Assembly (NCBI GenBank): GCA_018262705.1
Contig: JADFDQ010000001.1
Coordinates: 1-64,000, forward strand
Direction: 5' to 3'
DNA: 64,000 bases
From: Xanthomonas sp.
Lineage (GTDB): Bacteria > Pseudomonadota > Gammaproteobacteria > Xanthomonadales > Xanthomonadaceae
Part shown: one piece after another, positions 25,101 to 36,027 of the stretch
How positions within the stretch are numbered: the first letter of the stretch is position 1
Layout of the letters: each line of letters begins with the position of its first letter
The notes under the pieces: model-generated
Told to the model about the DNA's origin: nothing
Databases searched by the model: none
What the model saw: the letters and a program-made list of their open reading frames with translations, nothing else
Translations under genes and position numbers: made by a program

Positions 25101-26399
25101 TCAGGCCGCCGCGCGCTTGCCGTGGAACTGCTCTTCCTCGGTGCTGCCCTTGAGCGCCACGGTCGAACTCTGTCCGCCTTGAATGGTCTGGGAGACGGCG
25201 TCGAAATAGCCGGTGCCGACCTCGCGCTGGTGCTTGACCGCGGTGAACCCGCGCTCGGCCGCTGCGAACTCCTTTTCCTGCAGCTCGACGAAAGCGCTCA
25301 TCTGCCGTCGCGCATAGCCGTAGGCCAGATCGAACATGCCGTAGTTGAGCGCATGGAAGCCGGCCAGCGTAATGAACTGGAACTTGTAACCATAGCTGGC
25401 GAGTTCCTTCTGGAACCTGGCAATCGTGGCGTCGTCCAGATTCTTCTTCCAGTTGAAGCTCGGCGAGCAGTTGTAGGCCAGGAGCTTGCCGGGGAACTTG
25501 CGGTGGATGGCCTCGGCGAACTTGCGGGCGAACTCCAGATCCGGCTTGCCGGTCTCACACCACACCAGATCGGCGTAGGGCGCATAGGCCAGACCGCGGC
25601 TGATCGCCTGCCCCAGCCCGTTCCTGGTCTTGTAGAAGCCTTCGGCCGTGCGCTCGCCGGTGCAAAACGGCGTGTCGTTGTCGTCCACGTCCGAAGTCAG
25701 CAGGTCGGCCGCCTCGGCGTCGGTGCGCGCCACGATCAGGGTCGGCACGCCGCACACGTCGGCCGCCAGCCGCGCCGCCGACAATTTTTCGACCGCCTCA
25801 CGGGTCGGCACCAGCACCTTGCCGCCCATGTGTCCGCACTTCTTCACGCTGGCCAGCTGGTCTTCGAAGTGCACGCCGGCCGCGCCGGCTTCGATCATCC
25901 CCTTCATCAGCTCGAAGGCGTTGAGGACGCCGCCGAATCCGGCCTCGGCGTCGGCCACGATCGGCTGCAGGTAGTCGATGCCGTGATCGCCCTCGGCGTG
26001 GCTGATCTGGTCGGCGCGCAGCAGCGTATTGTTGATGCGCTTGACCACCAGCGGCACCGAGTTGGCCGGATACAGCGACTGGTCGGGATACATTTCGCCG
26101 GCGACGTTGGCGTCGGCCGCCACCTGCCAACCGGACAGGTAGATCGCCTTCAGTCCGGCCTTGACCTGCTGCATGGCCTGGTTGCCGGTCAGCGCGCCCA
26201 GCGCGTTGACGAAATCTTCCTGGTGCAGCGATTTCCACAGCTTTTCGGCACCCAGCCGCGCCAGCGAATGCTCGATGTGGACGGTGCCGCGCAGGCGCAC
26301 CACGTCGGCGGCGGAATAGGTGCGGGTGATGCCGGCCCAACGTGGGTTGTTGGCCCAGTCGAGATTCAGCTGTTCTGCGGTCGGGAGCAGGTTCTTCAT
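25101..26399 (-). CDS. aceA: Isocitrate lyase
   Basis: [61 protein letters not shown] (KKCGH catalytic). Confidence 0.96.
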
Positions 26400-26439
26400 G
26401 ATCGGCCTCGTTGGAAAGTGGGGTGGGGACAACGGTGGT

Positions 26440-28059
26440 TTAGTCGAGCCGCTCGTAGGCGGGCAAGGTCAGGAAATCGGCCAGATCGCTGGCGTGGGTC
26501 AGGCGGTCGAGCAGTCCGATCGACTCGCCGACATGGTGGGCGCCGGGCATGCCCGGAATGCGCGCCAGCCGGCTGGGCAGCCCGATCAGGACGCGGTCGA
26601 GCAGGACGAAATCGATCGGGGTGCCGTCATCCAGCGCCAGCGGCTCGCTGCCGTCATCGGTGAAATGCAACCACTGCCAGAGTTGGGCGCGCGCGATCTC
26701 GGCGGTGGCCGCGTCTTCCATCAGGTGGTGGATCGGCACGCAGCCGTTGCCGTCCAGCCACGCGGCCAGATAGCGCACGCAGACCTCGATATTGTTTTCG
26801 AAGCCGACGCGGGTGATCGTGCCGGTCACCGGCTCGATCAGATCCTCGGCAACGACCTCGACGTCTTCGCGCAGAACGTGCTTCTGGTTCGGGCTGCGCA
26901 TGCGCGCATCGAAAATTTCGCGCGCCAGCGGAATCAGCGCCGGGTGCGCCACCCAGGTGCCGTCGTGACCGGCCGTGACTTCGCGCAGCTTGTCGGCGCG
27001 CACCTTGTCGAGCGCGACCGCGTTCGCGGCCGGATCGCCGTTGATCGGAATCTGCGCCGCCATCCCGCCCATCGCGTGGGCGCCGCGGCGGTGGCAGGTC
27101 CTAATCAGCAACTCCGAATAGGTGCGAAGGAACGTTCGCGTCATGCCGACCTGGCCGCGCTCCGGGAACACGTGGTCGCGGTGGCGACGGAAGGTCTTGA
27201 TGCAGGAAAAGATGTAGTCCCAGCGCCCGCAGTTCAGGCCGACGATGCGACCCTTGAGCGCATGCAGGATTTCGTCCATTTCGAACGCGGCCGGCAGCGT
27301 TTCGATCAGCACCGTTACCTTGACCTGTCCCTGCGGCAAACCCAGTTCGGCCTCGATGAAGGACAGCGCCTGCTCCCACAGCGCCGCCTCTTCCATCGAC
27401 TGCAGCTTGGGCAGGTACAGGTAGGGGCCGCGGTCCTTGCCCGCCAGCAGCGCGGCGTTGTGCAGCAGGAACAGCGCGGCGTCGAACAGCGCGCCGGACA
27501 TTCGCTGGCCGTCCACGCGGACGTGCTTTTCGTCCAGATGCCAGCCGCGCGGACGGACGAGCAGCACCGCCTGCTCCGATTCCGGCTTGAGCGCGTACTG
27601 CTTGCCGTTGTCCGCGGTGAACTCCAGCGTGCCGCGCACCGCCGCGCGCAGCGCCTGCTGGCCGCCGATCAGATTGGCCCAGGTCGGGCTGGTGCTGTCT
27701 TCGAAGTCGGCCATGAAGCAGCTCGCGCCGGAGTTGAGCGCGTTGATCACCATCTTCGGATCGACCGGCCCGGTGATCTCGACGCGACGGTCGCGCAGCG
27801 CGGCCGGGGTCGGCGCCACCGTCCACTCGCCGGCGCGGATCGCGGCGGTGTCGGGGCGGAATCCCGGCAGCGCGCCGGCGTCGAACGCCGCCTGGCGAAC
27901 GCTGCGCGCTGCCAGCCGCGACTGCCGCTCGGACTCGAAGCGGCGATGCAACCCGGCCAGCAGTTCCAGCGCCCTCGGGGTCAGAATCGCCTCCTGCCCC
28001 GGCAGCGCCGGGGTGATTTCAACGCCCGCTTCGAGGCGATCTTGCAACACGGCCGACAT
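26440..28059 (-). CDS. aceB: Malate synthase A
   Basis: Start [77 protein letters not shown]. Confidence 0.95.
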
Positions 28060-28107
28060 CGGCAACTCCATGCAACGAATGGGCTCTCACCATCCGCAGC
28101 CGTGTGG

Positions 28108-28165
28108 TATTTGACAATATAGATTTGTCAATGTATTACATAATTTTTATAAATACTTAAGTTAA
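28108..28165. promoter_or_regulatory. AT-rich divergent regulatory region between aceB and a LysR gene
   Basis: TTGACAA-tatagat-TTGTCAA dyad (28111-28131), ATGTA-T-TACAT dyad (28131-28141), then an A/T-rich tract. Confidence 0.7.
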
Positions 28166-28169
28166 ATCA

Positions 28170-29138
28170 ATGGCGGGCGCCCCCATTTCCGCGCTGCGAT
28201 TCGCGTACAAAGGCTCGCGCCTGAAGCCGCTGCGGGCGTTTTGCCAGATCGCAAGACTTGGGTCGATTTCACGCGCCGCGGAAGCGCTGTTTCTCAGCCA
28301 GCCTGCGGTGTCGCTGCAGTTGCAGGCGCTGGAACGCGAACTCGGCGCACGGTTGTTCGAGCGCAGCGGGCGGCGCATGACGCTGTCGCGTGAGGGCGAG
28401 CTGCTTTACGACATGGCGCGCCCGCTGGTCGAGGGGCTGGACAACCTCGCCGCCAGCTTCCGCGAACGCGCGCGCGGTCTGGACGCTGGCGAACTGCACG
28501 TTGCGGCCGGCAGCTCCACGATCCTGTATCTGCTGCCGCAGTTCGTGGAAGCCTTCCGCAAGGCGTATCCGGAGGTACGGTTGACCCTGCACAACGTCAC
28601 CGGCGCCAGCGGCCTGGATCTGCTGCGCAGCGATGCCGTAGACCTGGCGGTGGGCTCGATGCTCGATGTTCCCGCCGACCTGAGCTACACGCCGGTCTAC
28701 CGCTTCGACCCAATGCTGATCACCCCGCCCGATCACCCGCTGGCACGCAAACGTGATTTGACGTTGGACGACTTGTCGCCCTACGGCCTGATCCTGCCGC
28801 CCAAGCGCCTGACCACCTACCGACTGGTCGATCTGGTGTTCCAGCAAAACCGGGTGCCGTACACGGTGGCCCTGGAAGTCGGCGGCTGGGAAGTGATCAA
28901 GCAGTACGTTGCCATGGGCCTGGGCATCAGCATCGTGACGGCGATCTGCCTGACCGAAGCCGACCGCCAGCGGCTGGTCGCGCGCTCGCTGGCGAACTGG
29001 TTTCCCGCGCGCAGCTACGGCATCGTGATGCGCAAGGGCAAATACCTGAGCAAACAGGCGCGCGCGTTCGTCGAACTGATCAACCCGCAGGCGCTGGCGC
29101 CGCGCCAATACGACGAGAGCGGGCATTCGGAGCGCTGA
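28170..29138 (+). CDS. LysR-family transcriptional regulator (CysB-like), divergent from aceBA
   Basis: RLKPLRAFCQIARLGSISRAAEALFLSQPAVSLQLQALERELGARLFERSGRRMTLSREGELL; LTTR HTH. Confidence 0.92.
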   Translation: MAGAPISALRFAYKGSRLKPLRAFCQIARLGSISRAAEALFLSQPAVSLQLQALERELGARLFERSGRRMTLSREGELLYDMARPLVEGLDNLAASFRERARGLDAGELHVAAGSSTILYLLPQFVEAFRKAYPEVRLTLHNVTGASGLDLLRSDAVDLAVGSMLDVPADLSYTPVYRFDPMLITPPDHPLARKRDLTLDDLSPYGLILPPKRLTTYRLVDLVFQQNRVPYTVALEVGGWEVIKQYVAMGLGISIVTAICLTEADRQRLVARSLANWFPARSYGIVMRKGKYLSKQARAFVELINPQALAPRQYDESGHSER

Positions 29139-29209: not shown

Positions 29210-31147
29210 TCACGGCATCACCAGCGCATCCGTCTTGTAGATCGCCACGTGCGGCACGCCGTCGCTGCCGATCCAGCCGCGGTACATGCCGCCGGTGTTG
29301 AACGGGAAGGCAATCACGCCGTCTGCGCTCAGAGCGATCGCGCCGCCGTCGCCGCCGGCGCGCGGAATGTCCACGTTGATCACGTCGTTGGCCGCCTTCG
29401 GCAGCGGCACGCCGGCCAGCCGCACGCGCGCACAGATTTCGTGCGCGGCGGCATCGCGGATGTAGAACTCGCCCCAGCCGGTGCCGGACACCGCACAGCG
29501 CGCATCGGCCCAGGTGCCGGCGCCGATGATTGGCGAATCGCCGACGCGTCCGTAGCGCTTATTGGTCATGCCGCCGGTTGAGGTGCCGCCGGCAAGGTTG
29601 CCGCTGGCGTCCAGCGCCAGCGCGCCGACGGTGCCGAAGTAGGCGCGCCCCGGCAGCACCAGCGGCCGCTGTTCGAGCCGCGCCTGCTTTTCTTCCTGCA
29701 GCGCGCGTTGCAGCGCTTTCCAGCGACCTTCGGTGCGGAAATACGAAGGATCGACCAGCGCGATGCCCTGCTCCCGCGCGAAGATTTCTGCGCCGTCGCC
29801 GACCATCATCACGTGGTTGGAGCGTTCCATGATCGCGCGCGCCAGCAGGATGGGGTTTTTCACCCGATGCAGCCCGGCGGCCGCGCCGGCGCGGCCGGTC
29901 GCGCCGTCCATGATCGAGGTGTCGAGCTCGTTCCTGCCGTCGTGGGTGAACACCGCACCGCGGCCGGCGTTGAAGTGCGGATCGTCTTCCAGAACCGTAA
30001 TTGCCGCAGTCACCGCATCCAGCGCCGCCGCGCCGCTTTGCAGCCTGGCATGGCCCGCACGCAGCGCCGCAGACAAGGCGGCCTTGATCTCGGTTTCCTG
30101 CTGCGGCGTCAGATCGCCCGGCTCGACGCCGGCGCCGCCGTGGATGACCAGCAGCGGCGCATCAAGCGCGACCAGCACGCCGTCACGCACGGCATAGTGG
30201 CGGGTGAAGGCCGGTTGGTCGACCGTACCTGCCGGCAAATGCAGCACCGAATGGCCATTGACGCCCAGCGTTTCCACGCGATCCAGATGCATCGGCCGGC
30301 CGTCGACCTGCTTGTTCACGAAGTTGCCGCGCACCACCGTGGCGCCGGCACCTGGTGCGGTGGCGTAGACATGGCCGCTGCCGTCGCCGTCCACCGCGAC
30401 CGCCGCATCTTCGTCCACGCCAAGGCCGACCAGCGCCCGCCCGGCCATGTCCTCGCTCTTGGCGAGGAAGGCCACCAGCCGCCCGAGGCGGGCGCGCTCG
30501 CTGAAGTGGGTGTCGGTGATCACGCCGCGCAACAGGGCGAGGTCGAGGAAGCCGGTTTCAATGGTGTTGCCATCGCCCAGCGGATCGGCCAGCGCGGCCG
30601 GGCTGATGATGCTGCCGCCGTCCATCGCGCCATACAGGTACTCGCCGAGGATCGCGAGGCCCGCGCTGGTGCCGCCCAGCGGTTTGCCGGCACGCACATG
30701 GTCGCTCAGCGCCTTGGCGATCGGCGTTCCGCGCCAATAGCGCACATAGCGCGACTGATCGCCGCCGGCGATGAAGATGCCGTCGGCGTGCTTGAGCGCG
30801 CGCAGGATCCGCGGATCGCTGGCGGATTCGCGATCCTTGAACACGAAGGTTTCGACCGACGCGATGCCGCCGACCTCGTTGAAGAACTCTTCACCGATTT
30901 CCCCGCCTTGCGAAGCGCGAAGGACGACGATGTGGCCGTTGCCCGCCTTTTGCATGAACCAGCGCAGGGCGTCGTAATTGCGGTCGCCGCCGCCCATCAG
31001 CAGCAGGCCGGGCTGCACCTGGCCCGGCGTGCGCGTCGCAGGATTGCCCAACAGGTAATGGCCGACATCGGCCGCCGCCGCAGTCAGCGGCATCGCCAGC
31101 GACAGCAGTGCGGCCATCAGCAGGGCCCGGCAGGAAACTTGCTTCAT
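29210..31147 (-). CDS. Predicted exported fusion: N-terminal cyanophycinase-like (peptidase S51) domain + C-terminal isoaspartyl peptidase/L-asparaginase (Ntn-hydrolase) domain
   Basis: Signal peptide MKQVSCRALLMAALLSLAMPLTAAAA; cyanophycinase motifs GIFIAGGDQSRYVRYW, GGTSAGLAILGE, ITDTHFSERARLGRLVAFLA; IaaA motifs LLVIHGGAG, NAGRGAVFTHDGRNELDTSIMDG, GTVGALALDASGNLAGGTSTGGMTNKRYGRVGDSPIIGAGTWAD (nucleophile Thr codon at 29630-29632). Confidence 0.88.
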   Translation of the reverse strand: MKQVSCRALLMAALLSLAMPLTAAAADVGHYLLGNPATRTPGQVQPGLLLMGGGDRNYDALRWFMQKAGNGHIVVLRASQGGEIGEEFFNEVGGIASVETFVFKDRESASDPRILRALKHADGIFIAGGDQSRYVRYWRGTPIAKALSDHVRAGKPLGGTSAGLAILGEYLYGAMDGGSIISPAALADPLGDGNTIETGFLDLALLRGVITDTHFSERARLGRLVAFLAKSEDMAGRALVGLGVDEDAAVAVDGDGSGHVYATAPGAGATVVRGNFVNKQVDGRPMHLDRVETLGVNGHSVLHLPAGTVDQPAFTRHYAVRDGVLVALDAPLLVIHGGAGVEPGDLTPQQETEIKAALSAALRAGHARLQSGAAALDAVTAAITVLEDDPHFNAGRGAVFTHDGRNELDTSIMDGATGRAGAAAGLHRVKNPILLARAIMERSNHVMMVGDGAEIFAREQGIALVDPSYFRTEGRWKALQRALQEEKQARLEQRPLVLPGRAYFGTVGALALDASGNLAGGTSTGGMTNKRYGRVGDSPIIGAGTWADARCAVSGTGWGEFYIRDAAAHEICARVRLAGVPLPKAANDVINVDIPRAGGDGGAIALSADGVIAFPFNTGGMYRGWIGSDGVPHVAIYKTDALVMP

Positions 31148-31246
31148 CCTCGCTCTCCACCCGTTGTGTGCGGACCTCCAAGCAGACGAATCAACGCAGC
31201 AAATCCCTACGCGCGCGTCGTCGCAACATTCCGCTATGGTACGCAG

Positions 31247-31822
31247 ATGCATGGCCCGCTCGACCACTGGTTCGTCCATGAGATCCTGATCCACGAGGAA
31301 GCATTGCTGCGCTACCTGCGCCATCACTGGCCGCATCGCGACGAAATCCACGACTTGCGCCAGGAGCTCTACGCCCGTATCTACGAAGCCGCCGCCAAAT
31401 CCATTCCGCTGCAGCCCAAGGCGTTTCTGTTTTCCAGCGCGCGCAATCTGATGACCGACCGGCTGCGCCGCAGCAAGGTGGTATCGATCGAACCGATGGG
31501 GGATTTCGAGCCTTCATACGTCTTGGTGGATGAGGTCACGCCCGAGCGCTGGAGCGGCAGCCGGCAAACTCTGCGGCGGCTGTCCGAGGCGCTCAACCGG
31601 CTGCCCGACCGCTGCCGGGAAGTCGTCTGGCTGCGGCGGGTGGAGGATCTGTCGCAAAAGGAAGTCGCCCTGCGCCTTGGCATCAGCGAGAAAACCGTGG
31701 AAAAACACATCGCCAAAGCCATGCGCCTGCTCGCCGATGCGCTGCACGGCGGTGAGGCCGGCGCGTCACCCGCGCACGCCATGCCGCCGTGCGCTGTTTC
31801 CACGCGGCGTCGGAAGGATTGA
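31247..31822 (+). CDS. ECF (FecI-like) RNA polymerase sigma factor
   Basis: LLRYLRHHWPHRDEIHDLRQELYARIYEAAAKSIPLQPKAFLFSSARNLMTDRLRRSKVV...ALNRLPDRCREVVWLRRVEDLSQKEVALRLGISEKTVEKHIAKAMRLLADAL; region 2/4 motifs. Start in the larger ORF trimmed to the ATG at 31247. Confidence 0.88.
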   Translation: MHGPLDHWFVHEILIHEEALLRYLRHHWPHRDEIHDLRQELYARIYEAAAKSIPLQPKAFLFSSARNLMTDRLRRSKVVSIEPMGDFEPSYVLVDEVTPERWSGSRQTLRRLSEALNRLPDRCREVVWLRRVEDLSQKEVALRLGISEKTVEKHIAKAMRLLADALHGGEAGASPAHAMPPCAVSTRRRKD

Positions 31823-31828
31823 CCCGCC

Positions 31829-32863
31829 GTGCGCCCACCCTGCGCCAGCATCGAACAAACCGCCGCCGATTGGCTGGCGAGACACGACGCGGGCGCATGG
31901 ACGGCGTGCGACCAAGCAGAATTCAACAGCTGGCTTGACCAGGACACGATGCATCGCATCGCCTTCCTGCGCTTGCAGGTAGCCTGGGATGAGACCGCGC
32001 GACTGCGCGCCTTGGGTGCCGGCAGGCACGCCGTCAGGCCGCCGCGAACCGAAGTTCGGAGCGATCGCCGCGAGCTGATGCTGCTTGCCCTGCAGCCGCG
32101 CGCGCGCGTTCCACGCAAGCCACGTCAGCGCTGGCTGCCACTGGCCGCCGCTTCGATCCTCGCCGCCTGCGCGCTGCTGCTGGGCTGGGATCTGCGGCAA
32201 CCCGCGCCGATGACCGCGATCTCGTACCAGTCGCTTCCCGGACAGGTCTCCACATTCGTGCTGGGCGACGGCTCGCACGTGATTTTGTCCAGCGACAGTC
32301 GGATCGAGGCCCGTCTGTCCGCTCGCGTCCGCGACATTGCCCTGACCCGCGGCGAAGCGATTTTCGAAGTCGTGAAAGATCCGCAGCGGCCGTTCTCGGT
32401 TGCGGCCGAAGGCTACCGTGCGGTCGCGGTAGGAACGCGCTATTCGGTGCGCCGGGATTCCGACGCGCTGCGGGTCGCGGTGACCGAAGGCACGGTACGA
32501 CTGGATTCCCCGGACCAGAACCGTTCCGATCAGCCCTCGGTGCTGCTTCCGGCCGGCAGCGTGGCGCTGGTACGCCGCAGCGGCGTGCTGGTTCGCAGCC
32601 TGCCGCTGGCACAGGTGCGCAGCATGCTTGACTGGCCCAACGGCATGCTGTCCTTCGCGGACGCGCCGCTGTCCGAGGTCGTTGCGGAGTTCAACCGCTT
32701 CAATACGCGCAAGCTGGTGATCGCCGATGCCGATGCCGCCACCCTGCGCATCGGCGGCAGCTTCCGCTGGGACAACGAAGACGGTTTTGTGCGCCTGCTC
32801 GAAGCCGGCTTTCCGATCCGCGCCGAGGCCGACGTCAGGCAAATCATCCTGCATTCGCGTTGA
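31829..32863 (+). CDS. FecR-like transmembrane anti-sigma factor/sensor
   Basis: ADWLARHDAGAWTACDQAEFNSWLDQDTMHRIAFLRL; TM WLPLAAASILAACALLLGW; FVLGDGSHVILSSDSRIEARL...RGEAIFEVVKDPQRPFSVAAEGYRAVAVGTRYSVR (FecR). Confidence 0.88.
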   Translation: MRPPCASIEQTAADWLARHDAGAWTACDQAEFNSWLDQDTMHRIAFLRLQVAWDETARLRALGAGRHAVRPPRTEVRSDRRELMLLALQPRARVPRKPRQRWLPLAAASILAACALLLGWDLRQPAPMTAISYQSLPGQVSTFVLGDGSHVILSSDSRIEARLSARVRDIALTRGEAIFEVVKDPQRPFSVAAEGYRAVAVGTRYSVRRDSDALRVAVTEGTVRLDSPDQNRSDQPSVLLPAGSVALVRRSGVLVRSLPLAQVRSMLDWPNGMLSFADAPLSEVVAEFNRFNTRKLVIADADAATLRIGGSFRWDNEDGFVRLLEAGFPIRAEADVRQIILHSR

Positions 32864-32949
32864 ACTCGCCAAGACGGGGGGATTTTCAGCGTCTGTTCGT
32901 CCTGATTGCTTGACGGCGCCAACGCGCGCGCTACCTGGGGAAAACCGCA

Positions 32950-35900
32950 ATGCTTTTCAATCGTCCGCTTCGCCGGCTGTTGCTGGCCCTGGCCTGTTCT
33001 GCCGCGCTCGCCGCACAGGCGCAGACCGCACCGCGCCTGGATATTCCTGCCGGCGATCTGGCCGCAGCGCTGGCCACCTACGCGCAGCAAACCGGAACCC
33101 AATTGATCTATCGCGCCGACCAGCTTCGGGGGGCGCACAGCAACGGCTTGCGCGGACAATCCGCTTCGCCGCAGGCGCTCGACGCCCTGCTTTCCGGCAG
33201 CGGCTTCCGCGCCCAGCGCGACGCTTCCGGCGCGGTTCTGATCCTGCCCGCCGCCGCTGCGCCAGCCGCACCGGCGCGTCCTGCACGCCCCGCGCCGCCC
33301 CCGCAGGCGCAATCGGAAGGGCCGGTGACCCAGCTGGAAGCGGTGCAAGTCACCGGCTCGCGCATTCCACGCGCGCAGATCGAAGGGCCGGCGCCGATCA
33401 CCGTGGTCAGCTCCGAACAGATCCAGGCTGCCGGGTTCACCTCGGTTCCGGAAGTCCTGCGTTCGCTGAGCCAGAACAGCGGCAGCGTGCAGGGCCAGCA
33501 GAACACCACCAGCGCGCAGTCCACCCCTGGCGCACAGGCGGTCGACCTGCGCGGCATCGGGCCCAATCACACGCTGGTGCTGGTCAACGGACGCCGGATC
33601 GCCGACTTCCCTTTGCCGCTCGAAGGCAAGAGCAACTTCACCGACATCGGCAGCATTCCGCTGGGCATGATCGACCGCATCGAAATCTTGACCGGCAGCG
33701 CCTCGGCCGTGTACGGGTCTGACGCCATGGCCGGCGTGATCAACTTCATCCTGAAAAAATCCGCCGACGGCACCACCATCGACTATCGCTACGGCGACAC
33801 CAGCCACGGCGGCGGCGCTTCCCACGACCTGACGCTGACCACCGGTTTCGAAAACGGCAATTTCACCGGCATCGTCGGCATCGAGTTTCAGGACAAACAG
33901 CCGCTGTGGGGCTTCCAGCGTCGCGTCCAGGATTCCACCCTCGATGCTCCCAACGCGCGCCGCCGCCTGCCGCGCGTGGTCGCATCGATCTACGACTGGG
34001 ACGACGACGTCAACATCATGCCTGCCAACGGCTGTACCGCGCTGTCGACGCAGGAACAAGGGTCCGTTGTCCTCACCCATGACCGCTGGGGCGAACCGTA
34101 TTGCGGCAGCGAACGTGCGATTGCCTATCGAACCATCCAGAACGAGCGCAAGGGCGTCAACTTCTACGGTTCCTTCGAGTATCAATTTTCCGGCACCCTG
34201 TCGTGGTTTGCCGATGTCCAGGCCGGACGCCAAACGGTGCGTCTGCTGACCGGGGTTCCCGGCGGCAGCAACGAATTCAACAGCGACCACATGGGCTGGC
34301 AGTTTCAGGATCCCGCAGCCACCGACAGCAACGACGGCATGTTCTACAACGCCAACACCGGCCACTATGAAGTCTGGACCCGTGAGTTCACTCTCGAAGA
34401 AGTGGGTGGCCTGCGCAGCCGCATGAACACCACGGTCGAAATGACCTTCGGCCTGACCACTGGCCTGAAGGGCGCCATTGGTGAAAACTGGGACTGGGAG
34501 CTGTCCTACAACTATTCCCGGTATAAGGCCGACGTGAGCATGCCGCGCATCAATGCTGAGGCCGCCAACACCTATTTCCTCGGCCCGCGCCTTGGCTACG
34601 ACGCCGACGGCTACGCGATCTACGCCCCGGATCCGGCCAACCTGTTCACTCCCCTGACCCCGGCCCAGTTCGCAACCCTCGGGGCGATGTCGGTTTTCCA
34701 CCCCAAGGCCGCGAACAACAACCTCAGCTTCACGGTCAACACGCCCGTACTGTTCACCCTGCCGGCGGGCGATGTCGGCTTCGCCGGCGTCGTCGAATAC
34801 GGCAGCCAGTCCTACCGCATCAATCCGGATCCGCTGGCGCTGACCGACACCGACTACTACGGCCCACGCTATGGCGACGGCCACGGCAGCCGCAACCACT
34901 GGGACGTGGCCGGCGAATTGCGCATGCCGCTGTTTTCCACGCTGCAGGCCAGCCTTGCCGGGCGCTACGACCAGTACAGCTACGGCGGCCAGAACCCCGG
35001 CAAGTTCACCTACAGCCTCGGCCTAGAGTGGCGACCTGTCGACACCTTGCTGGTTCGCGGCTCGTACGGCACCGGCTTCCGCGCACCGGACATGCACTAC
35101 CTGTTCGCAGGCAACGATTACTACCGCCGGACATCGACCGACTATTTCCAGTGCCGCACCGACGATCCCAGCCTGAGCGACGCCGACTGCTATGACGACG
35201 GCAGCTGGGACATCGCAACCCGCGACGTCTATGCGGGCAACCGCAACCTGCAGGTCGAAACCAGCAAGTCCGCCACGATCGGGTTTGTCTGGTCGCCCAC
35301 ATCGAACTTCGACCTCGCCATCGACTACTACAGCATTCGCATCGACAATCAGGTGCAGACCCAGAGCCGCGACCTGCTGCTGATCACCGACGGCAACTGC
35401 CGGCTCGGCATCACCGACACCGGCGCCGCCGTGGACGTGCATTCGCCAAGCTGTCTCGACGCCATGGCGCGCGTCGTCCGCAACGGCAACGGCGAAATCA
35501 CCAGCGTGCTGTTCGGGCCGATCAACATCGCCCACGAACAGACCTCGGGCATCGACCTGACCTTCAACTACCGGCTGGACACCGCCAACGCCGGCAGCTT
35601 CCGCTTCAACGGCAATTACAACTGGACGCATCGCCACACGCGCAACGTTTACCCGGGCGATCCGACCGAGGACATGCTCGACGTCGGTTTCAGCGACACC
35701 ACCCTGCCGCGCACCAAGGGCAATCTCGGCGTGAACTGGGAGCGCGGCGCCTGGGGCGCGGGTCTGTTCGGCAATTACCTCGGCCGGGTGGCGAACTACA
35801 CCAACACCGCCTGGACGCAATCGACCTGGCGCTTCAACGCCAGCGCGCGCTACAACATCAACGACCACTTTCAGGTCGCGCTGAGCATCGACAACCTGCT

Positions 35901-36027
35901 TGACCAAATGCCGCCGAAGGATCCCACCTGGGACCGTTACCCCTACTACGACACCTCGTGGTTCGACAGCTTCGGCCGCAGTTTTTTCCTGCAATTCACC
36001 TACAAGTTTGGCGGCCAGCCGCTGTAA
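32950..36027 (+). CDS. TonB-dependent outer-membrane receptor with N-terminal STN signalling domain
   Basis: Signal peptide; STN PRLDIPAGDLAAALATYAQQTGTQLIYRADQL; plug EAVQVTGSRIPRAQIEGPAPITVVSSEQIQAAGFTSVPEVLRSL...NGRRIADFPLPL...EILTGSASAVYGSDAMAGVINFILKK; C-terminal FLQFTYKFGGQPL. Confidence 0.92.
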   Translation: MLFNRPLRRLLLALACSAALAAQAQTAPRLDIPAGDLAAALATYAQQTGTQLIYRADQLRGAHSNGLRGQSASPQALDALLSGSGFRAQRDASGAVLILPAAAAPAAPARPARPAPPPQAQSEGPVTQLEAVQVTGSRIPRAQIEGPAPITVVSSEQIQAAGFTSVPEVLRSLSQNSGSVQGQQNTTSAQSTPGAQAVDLRGIGPNHTLVLVNGRRIADFPLPLEGKSNFTDIGSIPLGMIDRIEILTGSASAVYGSDAMAGVINFILKKSADGTTIDYRYGDTSHGGGASHDLTLTTGFENGNFTGIVGIEFQDKQPLWGFQRRVQDSTLDAPNARRRLPRVVASIYDWDDDVNIMPANGCTALSTQEQGSVVLTHDRWGEPYCGSERAIAYRTIQNERKGVNFYGSFEYQFSGTLSWFADVQAGRQTVRLLTGVPGGSNEFNSDHMGWQFQDPAATDSNDGMFYNANTGHYEVWTREFTLEEVGGLRSRMNTTVEMTFGLTTGLKGAIGENWDWELSYNYSRYKADVSMPRINAEAANTYFLGPRLGYDADGYAIYAPDPANLFTPLTPAQFATLGAMSVFHPKAANNNLSFTVNTPVLFTLPAGDVGFAGVVEYGSQSYRINPDPLALTDTDYYGPRYGDGHGSRNHWDVAGELRMPLFSTLQASLAGRYDQYSYGGQNPGKFTYSLGLEWRPVDTLLVRGSYGTGFRAPDMHYLFAGNDYYRRTSTDYFQCRTDDPSLSDADCYDDGSWDIATRDVYAGNRNLQVETSKSATIGFVWSPTSNFDLAIDYYSIRIDNQVQTQSRDLLLITDGNCRLGITDTGAAVDVHSPSCLDAMARVVRNGNGEITSVLFGPINIAHEQTSGIDLTFNYRLDTANAGSFRFNGNYNWTHRHTRNVYPGDPTEDMLDVGFSDTTLPRTKGNLGVNWERGAWGAGLFGNYLGRVANYTNTAWTQSTWRFNASARYNINDHFQVALSIDNLLDQMPPKDPTWDRYPYYDTSWFDSFGRSFFLQFTYKFGGQPL

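Follow-up and report, generated by a model that had tools for sequence, protein, structure and literature searches.

The window analysed here, a stretch of 64,000 nucleotides from Xanthomonas sp. (contig JADFDQ010000001.1), encodes an exported protein in which a cyanophycinase-like S51 domain is joined to an IaaA-type isoaspartyl peptidase domain, and next to its gene, in divergent orientation, is an ECF sigma-FecR-TonB-receptor cassette. The protein is probably a secreted (periplasmic, possibly surface-associated) bifunctional hydrolase that takes part in the substrate-responsive scavenging of cyanophycin or a very similar beta-aspartyl polymer. A regulatory switch appears to turn on the fusion together with the outer-membrane receptor, an arrangement suggestive of a self-contained system that scavenges the nitrogen stores of other microbes. 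Both enzymes were known before as separate proteins; here they are fused, apparently more than once, and exported, and the fused enzyme is placed with an outer-membrane receptor under a seemingly dedicated sigma factor.

An exported protein of two hydrolase domains

The gene had been proposed as one uninterrupted 645-residue reading frame with a signal peptide, and it was found as described, with the stop codon counted in its coordinates. The original prediction gave no strand; the gene lies on the minus strand (ATG at 31145-31147, stop at 29210-29212). A longer mechanical reading frame of 713 residues, beginning at a GTG, is also present, and the ATG at 31147 was taken as the start because the signal peptide comes directly after it.

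29210..31147, minus: exported S51 + IaaA fusion protein, 645 aa, stop codon included (ORF; Pfam/NCBIfam; 88% identical full-length relatives)
31070..31147, minus: Sec-type signal peptide, residues 1-26, cleavage site approximate (hydrophobicity profile; MK..R/AAAA pattern; hydrophobic N-termini in relatives)
30164..31060, minus: S51 cyanophycinase-like domain, residues 30-328 (CphB alignment; fold nearest CphB 7uqw/3en0)
29213..30163, minus: IaaA-type isoaspartyl peptidase (Ntn hydrolase) domain, residues 329-645 (Pfam; EcAIII alignment; fold EcAIII 2zak)

The signal peptide is borne out by the N-terminal pattern, M-K-x4-R with a hydrophobic core to about residue 20 and then AAAA, and by the hydrophobicity profile of residues 1-26. 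A Pfam search, as originally proposed, placed both domains above their gathering scores: Peptidase_S51 (PF03575) at residues 111-256 (E 1.3e-11, 45.0 bits against 23.9) and Asparaginase_2 (PF01112, the T2 family of IaaA and plant-type asparaginases) at residues 331-637 (E 1.2e-106, 356.8 bits against 27, profile positions 1-309 of 309). All of the motifs first quoted for the two families are found in the protein, namely GGDQ (128-131), GTSAG (159-163) and DTHFSERARLGRL (212-224) in the S51 part, and HGGAG (336-340), GTVGALALD (505-513) and TSTGGMTNKRYGRVGDSP (522-539) in the IaaA part. The S51 part lies under the NCBIfam equivalog cut-off for cyanophycinase (TIGR02069; 100.4 against 126.6 bits), and the protein lies under that for the E. 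coli-type beta-aspartyl-peptidase (NF007589; 296 against 567 bits). For comparison, a relative encoded by two separate genes scores 97.2 with TIGR02069, and the CphB of the same genome scores 263.3 bits.

When the S51 part was aligned to Synechocystis CphB (PDB 3en0), Q131, S161, D212 and H214 of the fusion corresponded to Q101, S132, D172 and H174, and R218, R220, R223 and E246 to R178, R180, R183 and E201. The Ser-His-Glu triad of CphB and the residues that contact its substrate (Gln, Asp and three Arg) are all kept in 42 of the 43 aligned fusions, which span Lysobacterales to Sphingomonas, and none of these residues varies when the alignment is enlarged by two CphB proteins. The sole exception is L072, whose S51 active-site stretch is garbled by compensating frameshifts. 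Within the IaaA part, autocleavage is predicted between G505 and T506, with T506 as the nucleophile, and T506, T524, R534, D537, T556 and G557 align with EcAIII and are kept in all 43 fusions. Loss of active-site residues is thus ruled out by the alignment, the frameshifted record excepted. That record is the 'complete genome' of Pseudoxanthomonas sp. NC8 (CP060419.1); its receptor match is also broken into pieces, and sequencing errors are the probable cause.

Structure prediction of the two domains agreed with their assignment. The full chain was modelled by AlphaFold2 with a mean pLDDT of 87 and a pTM of 0.85, and the C-domain of this model matches EcAIII (2zak) with a TMt of 0.95. The N-domain predicted alone (pLDDT 93.7, pTM 0.91) found the CphB structures 7uqw and 3en0 as its best Foldseek matches (E ~1e-18, TMt 0.75-0.80), with peptidase E structures far weaker (E ~1e-6 to 1e-8). 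As modelled, the N-domain has the fold of CphB rather than that of peptidase E or MccG. A fold match of similar quality was obtained with 7uqv, a structure titled 'pseudo-CphB', which its authors reportedly describe as inactive. Because this protein keeps the same motifs, motif and fold are insufficient as proof of activity.

These observations bear on the main rival explanation, a general scavenger of peptides with beta-aspartyl (isoaspartyl) linkages that derive from damaged protein or from material resembling peptidoglycan, in which the IaaA domain would do the main work and the S51 domain would be a dipeptidase with another Asp-containing substrate, or silent. It draws on the solved pseudo-CphB with its motifs, on the TIGR02069 score under the cut-off, and on the occurrence of stand-alone exported IaaA relatives without an S51 neighbour in L078, L080, L105, L106 and L108. 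IaaA enzymes also show promiscuity, even those whose genes sit in clusters with cyanophycin genes (PMC10206079). A silent S51 half would, however, be unexpected, since the catalytic and substrate-contact residues of CphB are all invariant across about 50% divergence. The N-domain is nearer to CphB than to peptidase E in sequence as well as in fold, and S51 and IaaA genes have been coupled repeatedly (see below). We regard a general scavenger as unlikely, while still deserving of serious weight.

Distribution of the fusion and history of the coupling

A scan of one genome per species returned full-length relatives with 49-88% identity in Thermomonas, Pseudoxanthomonas, Luteimonas, Lysobacter, Dokdonella, Arenimonas, Xanthomonas, Asticcacaulis and Sphingomonas, and also in Steroidobacteraceae. 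The fusion is present on two Novosphingobium plasmids as well. In the window's genus each of the 20 high-quality genomes has a match, and the full fusion was counted in 17 of 149 genomes in a sample of the order and in 3 of 399 across the phylum. It is a common protein among Lysobacterales but a rare one outside them. Misassembly of two genes, which the original prediction had recognised as a danger to its reading, is therefore ruled out by the 20 genus genomes and, together with a chance reading frame, by dozens of full-length relatives in independent assemblies.

The two enzymes are encoded by adjacent separate genes in L075, L077, L099, L100, L101, L102, L104 and L107, and the N-termini of these two-gene proteins resemble signal peptides. 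In the S51 tree, fusion and two-gene proteins form one clade, separate from CphB. A single origin of the whole fusion is rejected for the C-domain, where a single clade of fused IaaA domains gave a p-AU of 1.6e-6 and well-supported branches of the tree force at least four label changes; the N-domain test gave no rejection (single clade of fused S51 domains, p-AU 0.33). As the fused C-domains are not one clade, the coupling appears to have arisen or been exchanged repeatedly: the join may have been made more than once, or the C-domain may have been swapped with stand-alone copies. Under either history, the two activities are repeatedly coupled.

Genomes G131, G146, G152 and G162 contain a diverged fusion (57%) together with a stand-alone IaaA at 66-68% to the fusion's C-domain, and these stand-alone proteins are a possible source of C-domain exchange. 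Other exported S51 proteins of Gammaproteobacteria (L121, L124, L126, L127, L130 and L131) have about 500-610 residues with long extra regions. The L130 protein carries an additional N-terminal region ahead of its S51 part, and genome G291 encodes three such exported proteins with long extra regions.

The receptor cassette and its promoter-like motif

The divergent cassette and the candidate promoter sites are as follows.

31247..31822, plus: ECF sigma factor (sigma70 r2 + r4_2), divergent from the fusion (Pfam/NCBIfam; synteny)
31829..32863, plus: FecR-type anti-sigma/sigma regulator (Pfam/NCBIfam)
32950..36027, plus: TonB-dependent receptor, 1025 aa, with N-terminal STN signalling domain, plug and barrel (Pfam/NCBIfam)
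31185..31207, minus: ECF-promoter-like motif GGGATTT-N10-TTCGTC, 38 bp before the fusion's ATG
32878..32901, plus: matching motif G-GGGATTT-N10-TTCGTC, 49 bp before the receptor's ATG

Of the 55 Lysobacterales loci whose upstream sequence was long enough, 54 have the sigma-FecR-receptor arrangement, a count that takes in the two-gene versions L075 and L077; the 55th locus has the receptor alone. Alphaproteobacterial loci have the receptor alone in 9 of 9 cases, and the receptor cassette is absent from 5 of 5 Steroidobacteraceae-like fusion loci. The two-gene versions examined with longer flanks likewise adjoin the cassette or the receptor, the sequence of L132 stopping inside FecR. In Alphaproteobacteria an Lrp/AsnC regulator adjoins the fusion, and in Asticcacaulis a DctA/GltP-type symporter does so too; regulator and symporter fit amino acids as products.

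Among the other neighbours, the Sphingomonas locus L062 (7832-12552) has the fusion, then the Lrp/AsnC regulator and farther on a 2-oxoadipate dioxygenase gene, and in L071 an FAD amino-acid-oxidase-like gene takes the position of this dioxygenase. These neighbours give hints of linked amino-acid breakdown. Directly beyond the fusion, the window encodes isocitrate lyase, malate synthase and, in divergent orientation, a LysR regulator (25101-29138). They accompany the fusion in only part of the Lysobacterales loci and look like ordinary neighbours.

The bipartite promoter-like motif was first found by inspecting the intergenic region between the sigma factor and the fusion, in the form GGG[GA][AT][AT]-N11-12-TTCGTC and directed at the fusion; the same motif was then met just upstream of the receptor gene, directed at the receptor. 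It precedes the fusion in 46 of 58 loci and the receptor in 40 of 55, with no further site in 722 kb on both strands and none in reversed sequences. The exact form GGGATTT-N10-TTCGTC has two sites only in the 2.49-Mb genome, before the fusion and before the receptor. With looser spacing the motif is absent from loci that lack the sigma factor, save for chance-like matches in L057 and in the near-identical Sphingomonas loci L062-L065. The simplest reading of this pattern would have the ECF sigma factor drive both the fusion and the receptor genes.

A cassette of this kind invites a different explanation, in which the receptor would import a peptide siderophore or an isopeptide (e.g., a lasso peptide) and the fusion would open beta-aspartyl bonds in the imported molecule. 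Loci for lasso peptides in Caulobacterales and Sphingomonadales encode an isopeptidase together with a TonB receptor, and an ECF sigma-FecR pair next to a TonB receptor with an STN domain is typical of iron-carrier signalling (NCBIfam FecR/FecA matches). Here, however, the receptor scores under the cut-off of every siderophore-receptor model, and siderophore, lasso and other peptide-biosynthesis genes were not recognised in the flanks examined. The neighbours point instead to amino acids (the Lrp/AsnC regulator and the DctA/GltP-type symporter), and the isopeptide hydrolase at lasso-peptide loci is of the S9 type, not S51 plus IaaA. It therefore seems improbable that such processing is the role of the fusion.

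Proposed function and comparison with known systems

As the genome encodes a cyanophycin synthetase and has no Asparaginase_2 protein besides the fusion, the fusion could be supposed to handle the organism's own cyanophycin, replacing a cytosolic cyanophycinase and isoaspartyl peptidase. The fusion bears a signal peptide, however, and iadA, cphB, cphA1 and a cphA-like gene are consecutive on contig C22 (C22:103324-110063, equal to L090 5325-12064), which gives the genome a complete cytosolic iadA-cphB-cphA1 operon. The presence of iadA in this operon rules out the fusion as the only asparaginase-type peptidase for internal cyanophycin. The fusion is present in all 20 high-quality genus genomes, and in the sample of the order cphA1 shows no association with it, being found in 6 of 17 genomes with the fusion and 40 of 132 without. 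A role in internal turnover is accordingly very hard to credit, and the best explanation leaves the organism's own cyanophycin to a separate cytosolic set of IadA, CphB and CphA1. With this operon in the genome, external polymer is the most likely target of the fusion, and a secreted enzyme retained in producers and non-producers of cyanophycin alike fits such a use. The cphA-like gene after cphA1 encodes a 596-residue Mur-ligase protein whose match to CphA1 is confined to the C-terminal half of CphA1; no family matches the first ~195 residues of this protein, and an ATP-grasp domain was not found.

For the scavenging of external polymer we propose the following route. The TonB-dependent receptor would bind the polymer or an oligomer of it, and its STN domain, together with FecR, would make the ECF sigma factor active. 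The sigma factor would then transcribe the receptor and the divergent fusion genes by binding at the matching motifs, and the receptor would bring polymer or oligomer into the periplasm. There the S51 domain, with its CphB-like fold and its S161-H214-E246 triad, would clip the backbone to beta-Asp-Arg dipeptides. The IaaA domain, whose fold and residues are those of EcAIII, would cleave itself between G505 and T506 to form an (S51-alpha)2(beta)2 enzyme and split the dipeptides into Asp and Arg, and these amino acids would enter the cell via ordinary carriers. In this scheme we infer import, sigma binding, periplasmic location and quaternary structure, and cyanophycin is the presumed substrate.

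The original prediction, that one exported polypeptide takes cyanophycin through both steps, held for domain identity, export and the intactness of both sites; its S51 part falls below the cyanophycinase cut-off, and the two-step conversion is at present a proposal. It is the best supported reading, helped by the unfused two-gene version and by a TonB receptor that appears to be co-regulated. The receptor cassette, the shared motif, the cytosolic cyanophycin operon and the commonness of the fusion in Lysobacterales did not figure in it. Several points count against the proposed scavenging of cyanophycin: the sub-cut-off score of the S51 domain and its own clade apart from CphB, the motifs kept in pseudo-CphB, and the five Steroidobacteraceae-like fusion loci without a receptor cassette. 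In addition, FecI-FecR-FecA-type cassettes usually serve iron carriers, and free Asp and Arg need no TonB receptor.

A more specific form of the proposal, which we put forward tentatively as a plausible one, is TonB-dependent 'selfish' polyamide uptake. Intact or oligomeric cyanophycin would be imported, sensed via FecR by an ECF sigma factor with a two-promoter regulon, and digested wholly by one periplasmic particle. If true, this would be an amino-acid-polymer counterpart of the polysaccharide utilization loci. Should the substrate be cyanophycin, the system would provide a complete regulated route for taking nitrogen from the stores of cyanobacterial and other cells, and a ready-made single enzyme for converting cyanophycin to arginine and aspartate. 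The finding makes the sensing and uptake of cyanophycin by Gram-negative scavengers directly testable.

No description of the fusion or of its ECF control was found in the literature searched, which left subscription journals mostly outside, so an earlier mention is possible. The S51 part resembles CphB of Synechocystis PCC 6803 (PDB 3en0, 7uqw; family S51) in its fold and in the residues S132, H174, E201, Q101, D172, R178, R180 and R183. CphB, in contrast, is cytosolic and single-domain, without a C-terminal hydrolase, and has about 24% identity to the fusion's S51 part, which belongs to a distinct clade of exported proteins whose beta-rich end is longer. The C-domain superposes on IaaA/EcAIII (PDB 2zak, 3c17; TMt 0.95), with EcAIII T179 equivalent to T506 and T197, R207, D210, T230 and G231 conserved; EcAIII stands alone, whereas the alpha subunit of the fusion is exported and has the S51 domain at its N-terminus. 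CphE of Pseudomonas anguilliseptica is likewise an exported cyanophycinase used on external polymer (PMC10206079, citing Obst 2002), but, compared by description only, a fusion with a second enzyme is not part of its published descriptions as outlined there.

Clustering of cyanophycinase and iaaA genes is on record for genomes without cphA1 (PMC10206079). A cyanobacteria-scavenging member of the Bacteroidetes has a 'cyanophycin utilization locus' (PMC10206079, citing Ben Hania 2017), and in Citromicrobium JLT1363 a TonB receptor adjoins a cyanophycinase gene, with cyanophycin predicted in 2012 as the receptor's substrate (PMC3400609). As outlined in these sources, such loci group the genes for a cyanophycinase, an isoaspartyl peptidase and a transporter for use on external polymer; they are described as separate genes, with neither a two-enzyme fusion nor ECF sigma-FecR control with matching promoters. 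The fusion loci of Lysobacterales and Alphaproteobacteria answer to the same description, both enzymes and the receptor being encoded adjacently, with a presumed transport role and substrate. Finally, the cassette shares with FecI-FecR-FecA the order sigma-FecR-receptor, the STN domain of the receptor and a promoter-like motif ahead of the receptor, but its apparent regulon takes in a degradative enzyme and its ligand is probably not an iron carrier.
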